Shown here: in pieces, positions 2,129 through 22,128 of the stretch
Position numbering within the stretch: position 1 is the first letter of the stretch
Layout of the letters: each line of letters begins with the position of its first letter
Source: Cytauxzoon felis
Taxonomy: Eukaryota; Apicomplexa; Aconoidasida; Piroplasmida; Theileriidae
Length of the DNA: 25,836 nt
Direction of reading: 5' to 3'
Assembly: GCA_020283715.1 (NCBI GenBank)
Contig: JAIQCW010000168.1
Span: 1 to 25,836, forward strand
Program-made: the position numbers and the translations under genes
Notes under the pieces: model-generated
What the model saw: the letters and a program-made list of their open reading frames with translations, nothing else
What the model was told of the DNA's origin: nothing
Databases searched by the model: none

Positions 2129-4149
2129 ATGTCTTGTGATATAATTATGTATAAAGAGACAGATAATAATTCTGATCTCTATAATAAATTAAAATCATTA
2201 AAAAAACAATTAGAATTATGTGATATACAGGTATTATATTATCATTTTTTTTTATTACTATAATGATTTTTATTTTTATTTCTTCTAGGAAAATTATATT
2301 AAAGAAGAATATAAAAATCTAAAACTTGAATTAATTAGAGCTAGAAATGAAATTAAAAGAATACAAAGTGTACCATTAGTTATTGGACAATTCTTAGATA
2401 TCATCGATAAAAATTATGGAATTGTATCATCAACAGCTGGTTCTAATTATTATGTTAGAATTTTATCTACAATTAATCGGTAATTTATTATATAATTTAT
2501 TATATCTATACATTTAGAGAAGCATTAACACCTAATACAAGTGTAGCATTACATAGACATAGCCATAGTGTAGTTGATATATTACCACCCGAAGCAGATT
2601 CTTCAATACAAATGCTACAAGTATCAGAAAAACCAAATGTTACATACGCTGTATGCTAATATATCATATTTTTTAAATATCATTTAGGATATCGGTGGTA
2701 TGGACTCACAAAAACAAGAAATCAAAGAAGCCATCGAATTACCACTCACATGCCCAGAACTATATAAACAAATCGGTATAGACCCACCAGTCGGTGTACT
2801 ACTCTATGGACCACCCGGTATGTTTACACGATGTTACCTCCACCCGAGGTCCAATCCAACTCTATTTCCCAATGCATAGAGCTCCTCCACCTGAGGTCCA
2901 ATCCAACTCTCTTCCTCTTGCAGAGAGCTCTTCTAATTACCTATCTCTAAAGAGTAGAGCCACTCCCGGAGATCGTGGCGGAAGTCTAGTCATTGGACCT
3001 CAAGTGGAACCCGCAGCTGATCTCAGGGAAGCGGAGGGGGAAATAAATAGAGGAGGCCACCACGCCTAGTGGAAAGGAAGGTAGTGATGTAACCTCAGGT
3101 GGATATTTTCGGATATATAAATATCTTCAGGTACGGGTAAGACGATGCTTGCGAAGGCGGTTGCTCATCATACGGATGCAACGTTTATAAAATTTGTGGG
3201 TTCAGAGTTTGTTCAAAAGTATTTGGGTGAGGGTCCGAGAATGGTTCGTGATATATTTAGATTGGCTCGTGAGAATGCTCCATCAATTTTATTTATTGAT
3301 GAGGTTGATGCTATTGCTACAAAAAGATTTGATGCACAAACTGGTGCAGATCGTGAAGTACAAAGAATTTTATTAGAATTATTAAATCAAATGGATGGTT
3401 TTGATCAAAATGCTACCGTTAAAGTTATTATGGCCACTAATAGAGCTGATACATTAGATCCAGCTCTACTAAGACCTGGTAGATTAGATCGTAAAATAGA
3501 ATTCCCATTACCAGATCGAAGACAAAGAAGACTCATCTTCCAAACTATCACATCCAAAATGAACCTTTCCGATGATGTCGATCTCGAAAAATGTATGTTT
3601 ATCACTCCAACAAGACCTCTCCACCTGAGGTTACAACCTTTGATCCCACTCGTCCCCATCCTTGGTCCTGCCGTCAGCTCTTCCAATTACCTATCTCTAA
3701 AGAGTAATGCCACTCCCGGAGATCGTGGCGGAAGTGTTGTTATTGGACCTCAGGTGGAGACCTCAAGTGGAGTACCCGCAGCTGATCTCAGGGAAGCGGA
3801 GGGGGAAGTAAATAGAAGAGCTCCATGCAATGGAAAATATGGACCTCAAGTCGAGAGCTGTCTGCAAGACCAACGGTGGTTGTAACCTCAGGTGGAATAG
3901 ATATTATGTATTATCCTTATGTGTATTGATTGTACTTTAGTTGTTGCGAGGCCTGAGAAGATATCAGCTGCGGATATAGCTGCGATATGTTTAGAGGCTG
4001 GGTTACAGGCGATTAGAAATAACAGGTTAGTATTGATAAATTATATGAAATATTGACATAGATATGTTGTAACGACGAATGATTTTGAAAAGGGTTGGAA
4101 GAGGATTATTAGGAAGCATGATTGTGATCATAATTTCTATGGAATTTAA
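2129..4149 (+). CDS. RPT3: 26S proteasome regulatory subunit RPT3 (AAA ATPase, PSMC4)
   Basis: A subunit of the 19S base that unfolds ubiquitinated substrates. Seven exons (2129-2230, 2289-2479, 2518-2650, 2688-2817, 3131-3592, 3941-4025, 4062-4149) give 1191 nt, 396 residues, a normal family length. The N-terminus is a coiled coil, followed by the OB segment [16 protein letters not shown] and SNYYVRIL. The AAA domain shows Walker A GPPGTGKT (split by intron 4 as GPPG/TGKT), [20 protein letters not shown], Walker [17 protein letters not shown], sensor MATNRAD, arginine finger [19 protein letters not shown], and a C-terminal helical domain ending HNFYGI. These motifs match RPT3 rather than other RPT subunits. 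Introns 4 (2818-3130) and 5 (3593-3940) hold repeat blocks; the other four are about 36-58 nt. Confidence 0.97.
2839..3103 (+). repeat. Modular repeat block R3 (RPT3 intron 4)
   Basis: Order on plus: A, A, D-like, E, A, F, B, A, with A modules inverted at the ends (TCCACCCGAGGT and ACCTCAGGTGGA). It sits inside the intron that splits the Walker A motif, leaving 21 nt of ordinary intron upstream and 27 nt downstream. E and F share one frame ([15 protein letters not shown], then [12 protein letters not shown]), but the exon frame stops at the start of the block. Confidence 0.92.
3620..3896 (+). repeat. Modular repeat block R4 (RPT3 intron 5)
   Basis: Order on plus: A, C, E, A, A, F, A, D, A. 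The reading frame of exon 5 runs through the donor and the whole block and stops at 3885. The intron's first 33 nt (3593-3625) nearly match those of the repeat-bearing intron of the ITFG1-like gene, so the element may include the splice donor. Confidence 0.92.
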
Positions 4150-4225
4150 ATTTAATATAAAATACATACAAATTATAAATTTTTTATAATTATTAATTTA
4201 TATATTTATATTTTTATTTAATTAA

Positions 4226-19555: not shown

Positions 19556-19639
19556 AAATTAATAAAAATTACTAGGATAATTCTCCTAAATAAATACCCA
19601 CAATTTCAATTACAAATATTGTACAAGGATTATAATATG

Positions 19640-22128
19640 TCAATTTATAATAAATTTTTGACGGAAACCTTTAGATTGCTCTGAATCTTCACGTTTCTCC
19701 TTCATTTCAAATATCAAAATCACCAAACCGAATGCAGCTAAACATGTTAATGTAGCTAACAATATAATCTTGATTTGCTTAGATGGACTTAATGATAGTT
19801 TCAAATACCATCTGAACAAGGTATATAATAAATAATAATATCAACAAACTCTGTAGGATATGATAATGGATATGGTATAACCATTACACTACAATTAGGT
19901 ATAATTGAAATCCACATATTACTATATTGTTTATTCCTACTAGGCATACCCAAATAAAATTCTTCTACATAATTATTAGTCTCACCAAGTCTATTAAGAT
20001 TAATATATAAATATAAAATAAACTAACCCAAATATATTAAATGGTGGTAACATTGGAGAATGAGCAGATTGTGTACGTAATGTAGCAGATTTTGGATGCT
20101 TTGTACCATCAAAATCAATCACTGTAATCTTATATGTAGGACCTATTAAATATTATTAATCAATCAATCATTAATCAATATACCTGGTGTATTATAACCA
20201 AATGACATCGAACGCTCAATCATTGTATTCTCTAGCAATACATTACGTGTAGTCACCTTCATAAATAAACCCACATGCTCATCCACCAAATTAAAAAAAT
20301 ATACCCTCATTTTCTTCGAATCATCACTAGTAAATACCATTAAATTTATCAAACCCTATATTCAATATTTACATGTAATTATAGAGAAGTAAAATACACT
20401 CGAGGTCCAATCCACCGAAGGTTATACCAACTCTCTTTCCACTAGACGTTCCACCTGAGGTTACATTCCTGCCGTCAGCCTCTCTATTTACTTCCCCCTT
20501 CGCTTCCCTGAGATCAGCTGCGGGTTCCACTTGAGGTTACATCCAACACATCCTTAGCACCATCTTCCATCATTCCCATGATGGATGATCCATCACTATC
20601 CTTCTCACCGCCACGATCTCTGGGAGTGGCTTTACCGTTTACGGGGAAGTAAATAAAAGAGCTCTCTGCAGGAGAACGCGAGGTTGTAACCTAGGTGGAT
20701 TGGATTGGACCTCAGGTGGAGGCGAGTAGAATAGATGTTGTAACCATGGGTGGAGAGGTCTTGTTGAAGTGATAAACATACATCTTCGAAGACATCGATA
20801 CCGGTGACTTTGTATATATGTTCATTATTGGAATAGAATTTGATTGGTATTTCGATTGGGTTTGAGAATTTGATAGTTTTATCGGTTCGTTCGATATTTT
20901 TAAAAATGTGGATAAATTCTTTATTATTGGATGTAGTTGCGATGGTAATATCTGTATATCCATTATTATTAAAATCAGCTGTATATAATGTGATTGGATT
21001 TTTATAATTTCCAATAAATTTATAATCTTTAAATGTAATAAGAGTAGAATTTTTATCAATAGGATTATTAAATTCCATAGGTGATGATATACACATATTT
21101 GTAGGATGTCTACAATCATGAAATAATTGTTTTTGCCATAATTTAGTACAAAATGGTATTTGTTTATTAAATGAGAATGTAATTTTTATATCATCTAAAC
21201 AATTACCATTATTATCTATATTATTACAATATGGTATAGCAATATCTATATTACCATCACCATTAAAATCATAAAATAATAATTGTCCATAATAATTTGG
21301 TAATGTTATAATAAAATTTTCTCTAGTATATACTAATTTTGTATTATTATATGATGATAACCATAATTCTATATATTTTTTATCTAAATTATTAATTATA
21401 AATATTAAATCTGCTCTACAATCACCATCCATATCAACAAATGCACATGAATGTGGTGATGGTATATATCCACTAATTTCACCTATAAATATACAATCTG
21501 GTATATCTTTTAATAAATATGGATAAAATTCACCATTATTAGCTATCCATACAAATATATGATTATCTAATGTTTGACATAATATATCTATTTGACCATC
21601 ACCATTAATATCTGCTATTAATGGATGTATAGATGTATATTTATAATTATTTAACATATGATTATTATTTATATTTTTTATATCATCTCTAGAATCCCAA
21701 TTAGATTCTAATATTAATTCACCATTTGATCTAAATAAACCTAATAAATAATAACCATATGTTGATAAATTTGATTTATTTAATACACTTCTTGTAGTAT
21801 CATTCTCATTCTTCATTATTAATAATACATCCAAATAATTATCACTATTCAAATCAGTTGCTACCAATCCTACTATAATACCATTAACATTTATTTTATA
21901 ATATAATGTATCATCCAATTTCTTAGATATACCTGTATATATATATATTGTACTCACCTTCTTATCATCATCCACATCATATGATATCAAATCTAATAAA
22001 CCATCATGATTATAATCACCCCAATCACCAGCCAATCCATCACCTTTAAATACTTTATCAACCTGAACCATTTTATAACATACCGTCAATGGTATTATCA
22101 ATAATATCCATAATTTATCTATAACCAT
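19640..22128 (-). CDS. ITFG1/TIP-like FG-GAP repeat type I membrane protein
   Basis: A homologue of T-cell immunomodulatory protein (TIP, ITFG1/LNKN-1), conserved in apicomplexans. The first exon (22128-20782, 449 codons) starts with a signal peptide ([19 protein letters not shown]). It then shows FG-GAP/integrin-type calcium motifs: [101 protein letters not shown], consistent with a beta-propeller. Later exons give [60 protein letters not shown], a membrane helix [20 protein letters not shown] and a charged tail. Total about 640 residues, the TIP domain order. Intron 20356-20781 (426 nt) contains R17; other introns are about 37-41 nt. Confidence 0.92.
20397..20754 (-). repeat. Modular repeat block R17 (ITFG1-like gene intron)
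   Basis: On plus: A, B-like, A, C, reversed F, A, reversed G, reversed inner E, then F-like outer sequence (ACGGGGAAGTAAATAAAAG) where E should end, D-like, A, A, A. The G-A-F part matches R11. E and F are out of register. Next to it, 20749-20781 nearly repeats the start of RPT3 intron 5. Confidence 0.92.

Follow-up and report, generated by a model that had tools for sequence, protein, structure and literature searches.

Intron starts shared between genes beside a mosaic repeat in Cytauxzoon felis

Proposed routes of intron spread and the window

Introners, i.e., repeated elements whose insertion is held to create introns, have been reported in 175 genomes, in an article whose main text is without the words Apicomplexa, Theileria and Babesia (PMC9860276), and described systems include the introners of Amoebophrya (PMC7789003) and the introner-like elements of fungi (PMC4457414). 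Another route, raised as a possibility in PMC9120149, is the transfer of introns between paralogues by gene conversion. The small genome of the piroplasm Cytauxzoon felis offers several comparable cases for the unsettled question of how introns spread. The window analysed here is contig JAIQCW010000168.1 (25,836 nt; C100 among the 181 contigs of the 8.62-Mb genome), in which intron 5 of the proteasomal ATPase gene RPT3 and an intron of a gene for an ITFG1-like protein both carry a mosaic repeat and begin with almost the same 33 nt. We put at about one half the probability that such intron starts are shared through short copying tracts, running from the repeat outward through the intron ends. 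Around the same repeats, coding DNA shows a strand-asymmetric footprint in its composition, and the repeats are also found inside proteins, among them the surface antigen cf76, of a species surveyed as being without transposable elements; the text of that survey reports that candidates for miniature inverted-repeat transposable elements (MITEs) were discarded, and reports no class II elements in Apicomplexa (PMC9141347). Among titles on apicomplexan introners, piroplasm or Theileria repeats and Cytauxzoon genomes, a literature of which subscription papers mostly fell outside the scope, none describes this repeat.

Gene models were made ab initio for a sample of 215,836 bases (140 kb of contig C9, 50 kb of C4 and the window; 2.5% of the genome) by a gene finder trained on the same sample, and the genome outside it was reached by exact or near-exact patterns only, with searches for the reversed patterns as controls of several motif counts. 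The G+C content of the sample is 32.5%, and the published assembly is described as 9.1 Mb in 361 contigs with 31.8% G+C (PMC3748084). The models were run twice, with repeats first penalised in exons and then neutral. As the neutral run sets some acceptors within repeats, distances were drawn from the penalising run after removal of the introns over exonic repeats, which kept 65 of 85 repeat introns (63 of the 65 being GT-AG), a set in which a few ends remain wrong, RPT3 intron 5 included.

Intron starts common to several genes

The initial annotation had claimed that the RPT3 and ITFG1-like introns share their first 33 nt, donor included, with one base different, and indeed 32 of 33 nt are identical, both introns beginning GTATGTTTATCAC at the exon/intron border (Table 1). 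The continuation into GGTTACAAC is also present, and GGTTACAAC is a standard module of the repeat; the repeat-bearing intron of ADSS begins GTATGTTTATC as described. As for the alleged similarity of the exon ends, TCGAA and AT are common to both genes but out of register. Pfam searches uphold the gene names, with AAA (7.6e-46) and Prot_ATP_ID_OB_C, the proteasomal ATPase OB domain, in the first 333 aa of RPT3, and, in the first 400 aa searched of each, FG-GAP_3 in the ITFG1-like protein and Adenylsucc_synt (adenylosuccinate synthetase) in the ADSS protein. Among the 1,953 pairs formed by the 63 GT-starting repeat introns of the sample, the first 24 nt agree at 23 positions in the RPT3/ITFG1-like pair and at 18 in the runner-up; assuming independent positional composition, pairs this good are expected 2e-5 times in the sample and 0.03 times genome-wide. 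When all intron ends of the sample are compared with one another, this pair again comes first, the remaining 39 of the 40 pairs listed being A+T-rich. Genome-wide, GTATGTTTATCAC has 10 copies in 8.62 Mb (reversed control 0), 9 of which begin repeat-bearing introns, and given that about 2 would be expected from the donor consensus and the local C-richness of repeat introns, part of this 13-mer is ordinary donor signal. CAACAAGACCTCTCCACC is found exactly only at the RPT3 and ITFG1-like introns, and elsewhere as one copy with one mismatch and one with two, neither directly after a GTATGT donor. The intron start at C158:38308 is similar to the RPT3/ITFG1-like start; by eye, the C158 and C9:34354 introns have like 3' ends.

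Put to a test of uniqueness, the RPT3/ITFG1-like match proved to have company in five further sets of shared starts, i.e., C79:17387/C97:11861, C145:9155/C149:6915, C24:57631/C87:14678, a set at the P-loops of AAA-type genes and three sites on C132. A pattern of donor, 8-38 nt and terminal repeat module gives 44 matches (reversed control 0), or 43 once a nested match is dropped, and among these 43 repeat-intron starts 8 pairs are similar (four with no or one difference and four less closely) versus a mean of 0.01 in 200 shuffles, although three of the eight join neighbouring C132 sites and are possibly plain gene duplicates. The C79/C97 introns have 55 nt unbroken in common, made up of the last 8 exon bases and the 47 that open the intron (tolerating one mismatch, 13 of 14 exon bases agree), the C145/C149 introns 5 exon and 41 intron bases (46 nt) with one difference, and in both pairs divergence begins inside the repeat and the upstream exons are dissimilar. 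At C24/C87, 29 of 30 nt are identical. Together these sets suggest that pieces of introns may have been copied between genes in C. felis. The three C132 sites (28020, 29430 and 30137) carry the same or similar repeat-intron starts within about 2 kb and on both strands, and possibly belong to a small gene family.

The P-loop set includes RPT3 intron 4, which splits the second glycine codon of GPPGTGK. The GPPG codons followed by a loose donor are found 16 times in the genome and 17 times in reversed searches (8 and 9), and the case of the AAA-type genes therefore rests on the shared start and not on the count. Twelve of the 16 matches continue GTATGT (C20, C79 twice, C91, C100, C119:57998, C134, C148, C158, C170 twice and C176), the four without it being left outside the set, and nine of the 12 introns begin GTATGTTTACATGAAGTTACC with 0-2 differences and then enter the repeat module, which is degenerate in places; with an intact module required close by, the GPPG-donor pattern has 4 matches (control 0). 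The C119 and C176 introns have diverged starts and repeat-like sequence. All 8 genome copies of TGTTTACATGAAGTTACC at up to one mismatch, and 9 of 11 at up to two, sit at the listed GPPG sites, while at three mismatches there are 20 matches, about as many as in the reversed controls up to three (17). Both ends of the intron shell are common to one pair only, RPT3 intron 4 and C148, which lie in the same codon, with GGACCACC before and GTACGGGTAAG after, and whose 20 nt before the acceptor are identical (six other matches with 3 mismatches, reversed control 5). The exon before C79:7335 resembles what we take to be CDC48, and the one before C148 presumably another AAA protein. It is hard to explain by inheritance alone that long-separated genes have like starts at one codon, and copying between AAA-type genes guided by the conserved codons would be the simplest account of these sequences. 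Eight other P-loops match GPPGTGK uninterrupted (control 0), and a single codon motif that is interrupted at 12 sites and intact at 8 makes intron transfer between genes directly testable. The same 16-nt sequence of GPPG codons plus GTATAT stands at C119:12461-12476 (+) and C119:13108-13123 (-), about 650 bases apart, possibly as an inverted duplication.

Table 1 Positions of the features discussed in the window
Feature	Position	Strand	Basis or remark
First 33 nt of RPT3 intron 5 (shared tract with donor)	3593-3625	+	32/33 identical to 20781-20749
First 33 nt of the ITFG1-like intron (shared tract)	20749-20781	-	sequence match
RPT3 intron 5 with repeat	3593-3940	+	gene model, second run; acceptor misplaced in the first
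ITFG1-like intron with repeat	20356-20781	-	gene model
RPT3 intron 4 with repeat, one of the AAA set, splitting the second glycine codon of GPPGTGK	2818-3130	+	
5' shell of RPT3 intron 4, 0-2 differences at 8 other GPPG sites	2818-2838	+	
3' shell of RPT3 intron 4, with an exact match at C148:8510-8529	3111-3130	+	
ADSS intron with repeat, begins GTATGTTTATC	6791-7115	-	
RPT3 gene	2147-4149	+	Pfam; last exons and stop by eye
First exon of ITFG1-like (FG-GAP) gene	20782-22128	-	gene model and Pfam FG-GAP_3
ADSS gene model	5823-7838	-	model and Pfam Adenylsucc_synt
Open frame through two repeats (about 1021-1580 and 3-526)	3-1799	-	

The mosaic repeat and its surroundings

Masking by k-mers recovers 139 repeats in the sample, covering 15.5% of its bases, and a 16-nt repeat core has 1,467 copies in the genome (715 forward and 752 reverse; reversed control 0). 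The repeats are mosaics of short modules between inverted terminal modules, TCCACYYGAGGT ... ACCTCRRGTGGA, and the 120 whose orientation is clear are rich in C on the left and in G on the right; one copy was folded, and its ends pair (z -2.77, with 2 of 200 shuffles as good). Both terminal modules, at up to 2 mismatches, are present in 63 of 85 repeat introns, and in 60 of these 63, printed and read by eye, no constant target-site duplication is seen. The repeat occurs in all sequence classes. In the neutral run 61 of the 139 are intronic, 49 intergenic and 29 exonic, and in the penalising run 82, 57 and 0. Whether any repeat counts as exonic is therefore a matter of the model chosen, but two repeats in the public cf76 protein and large open frames running through repeat matches give the exonic class independent support. 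Twenty of the 29 exonic repeats are exonic over >90% of their length and share one recurring set of peptide modules. Orientation is biased in exons (21 sense, 6 antisense, 2 undetermined; p 0.006) and not in introns (26 sense, 27 antisense, 8 undetermined). In-frame repeats of this kind, those of the open frame at the beginning of the window included, would give recurring peptide modules to many proteins. Clusters of repeat matches also lie in long open frames of 734 to 3670 aa (C14:41273-43132, C33:51850-54951 and C164:36337-39651, from the cf76 search), one stop falling within two of the C14 matches.

Introns with the repeat differ from plain ones at the donor, which is GTATGT in 25 of 65 repeat introns versus 40 of 264 plain introns (p 9e-5) and is followed by C-rich, G-poor sequence, and these two properties make GTATGTTTATCAC likelier in repeat introns. 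Within the 65 introns the quartiles are 30-68 nt from donor to repeat and 40-79 nt from repeat to acceptor, i.e., the element does not adjoin the splice sites. Without the repeat, the median length of these introns is 103 nt, above the median of 42.5 nt for whole plain introns, and by eye decayed modules seem responsible for some of it.

As the strand is written, the sequence is C-rich to the left of a repeat and G-rich to its right, and a flip of this sign is found at 128 of 137 repeats (two of the 139 being left out for short flanks) versus 47.9% of 1,274 control places (p 2e-30). It accompanies intronic repeats of genes on both strands as well as intergenic repeats, and over all sites the skew has all but vanished beyond 300 nt. 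Third codon positions next to intronic repeats show peak skews of -0.77 and +0.68, with -0.28 and +0.13 left at 300-500 nt, and exons beside short plain introns lack the footprint (+0.08 and +0.14). Splicing and gene direction are rejected as its source for these reasons. Where the coding strand leaves the repeat, two-fold codons have G in 0.54 of the A/G-ending class at 60-120 nt versus 0.30 at 700-1500 nt, and C in 0.07 versus 0.12 of the C/T-ending class; on the opposite strand C stands at 0.29 near and 0.12 far, and G at 0.07 and 0.26. A to G and C to T changes appear to be in excess on the strand that leads away from the repeat, the changes being unpolarised. Such a sign would fit a strand that is single-stranded beside a replication start or an R-loop, or one resynthesised with G.T errors; deamination of the strand left after break resection was rejected, as it should give the opposite sign. 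Nine of the 137 repeats lack the flip, and two of the window without it, at 5456-5668 and 15852-15971, are possibly young insertions. Conversely, 77 of 122 strong flips lie within 100 nt of a repeat and 42 more than 300 nt away, the distant ones (e.g., C9:134059, C9:104589 and C4:38669) perhaps marking lost or decayed repeats and perhaps having another cause.

The gene for cf76 (C114:6540-8708) is 100% identical to the public C. felis protein R9TJT0 over 723 aa. In the numbering of the first of two public proteins its repeats occupy aa 179-263 and 582-658, and the two proteins differ in 61 alignment columns confined to aa 119-298, with 42 of them within the first repeat and 19 in the flanks of that repeat; outside this stretch, the second repeat included, the proteins are identical. 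In this one gene and one sequence pair, repeat and flanks can be seen to change together within a species. The isolate differences look as if repeat turnover had altered the flanks. The cf76 paper reports 92.2-100% identity among eleven samples and a variable 30-bp tandem repeat in the C-terminal region.

Explanations for the shared starts

If the shared starts arose by copying, each event would begin within the repeat, itself found at very many loci, proceed outward past the intron end and stop where the copied strand meets homology in the receiving gene, i.e., the donor consensus with a few exon bases or a conserved coding motif. At P-loops of the AAA type the conserved GPPG codons would guide the copying, so that the same repeat-bearing intron would come to lie in the same codon, in one pair with its 3' end included. 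Starts would thus be shared because short copying events begin in a ubiquitous repeat and end at homology of the receiving gene, and the shared tracts have limits that support such copying, as one end lies in a repeat module and the opposite end at the donor or in a few exon bases. We infer recombination or template switching as the copying step, as well as its direction and the entry into some intron-less sites. A further proposal, possible but doubtful, is that each repeat is the focus of recurrent, error-prone local copying that would rewrite about 300 nt per side with A to G and C to T changes on the strand leading away, remodel the repeat and move intron ends or whole introns by exon homology, which would amount to intron homing without a homing enzyme in a nuclear genome. 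Several observations weigh against copying from the repeat. No event has been caught in the act, its direction is inferred only, and the loose GPPG-donor count does not exceed its reversed control. C134 holds a plain 46-nt intron at the same GPPG codon, and some P-loop introns may thus be older than the repeat; the AAA identity comes from Pfam for RPT3 and from reading the exon at C79:7335 and C148, all other sites being assigned by their GPPG motif. Two 2-mismatch copies of TGTTTACATGAAGTTACC (C37 and C79:30052) are outside the listed GPPG sites, and in the 216 kb modelled the RPT3/ITFG1-like pair alone stood out, the sharing therefore being rare or soon erased.

The initial annotation had preferred an introner, i.e., a repeat copy that carries its own 5' (sometimes 3') splice site and creates an intron by inserting into exons, the GPPG codons being a target preference. 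Part of this stood, as the donor travels with the repeat edge in all six sets, RPT3/ITFG1-like included, and the match is not unique; the stronger donors of repeat introns and the contrast between 8 uninterrupted and 12 intron-bearing P-loops also agree with insertion. As a general rule, a repeat with its own donor was rejected on the strength of the 49 intergenic and 29 exonic copies, which keep the repeat from being essentially intronic, of the variable donor distances and of the AAA start, whose copies at up to one mismatch are confined to GPPG sites. Intron gain by insertion as a general rule is not supported either, given the same evidence and the scarcity of repeat introns in genes without plain introns (4 in 22.6 kb of coding sequence versus 60 in 93.1 kb, p 0.004), and with no constant target-site duplication seen by eye in the introns read, we hold the introner account to be unlikely. 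That repeat introns accompany plain ones suits the view that the introns, those at GPPG codons included, predate the repeat, which entered them later, conversion then making their ends alike and no intron being gained. The two shells of RPT3 intron 4 together measure 48 nt, close to the plain-intron median, C134 retains a plain intron at the shared codon, intron phase is no different between repeat and plain introns (p 0.16), and positions shared in paralogues that predate the last common ancestor are known (PMC9120149). We nonetheless hold this view to be improbable as well, for it requires that many separate P-loops had an intron at the same base, with eight others lacking it, and the outside part of other repeat introns is longer than a whole plain intron. 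Chance with shared composition, whereby a donor consensus and the C-rich, G-poor sequence behind it are alike by themselves, would account for about 2 of the 9 intronic GTATGTTTATCAC copies, yet against the 8 pairs, the 55-nt unbroken tract and the 0.03 pairs of RPT3/ITFG1-like grade expected it is highly implausible, and in its pure form it is rejected, as the shuffle and composition counts tell against it for most sets.

The C. felis case can be set beside several described systems. With introners, as portrayed in the articles cited above, it has in common repeated introns, inverted end repeats, starts shared between genes and several introns at one position; it differs in that the repeat is also intergenic and exonic, keeps no fixed distance from splice sites, and forms small sets, the largest tied to one coding motif. 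Related domains that carry the same intron in one codon, with ends alike, recall intron transfer between paralogues, whereas in C. felis the sharing extends to apparently unrelated genes with 5-8 unbroken exon bases in common. MITEs are short, hairpin-prone elements with inverted terminal modules, and the C. felis repeat resembles them in all three respects, but it is a mosaic of exchangeable modules in which no constant target duplication was seen by eye. The palindromic elements of Rickettsia likewise lie in frame inside protein-coding genes; those are bacterial and know no spliceosomal introns.

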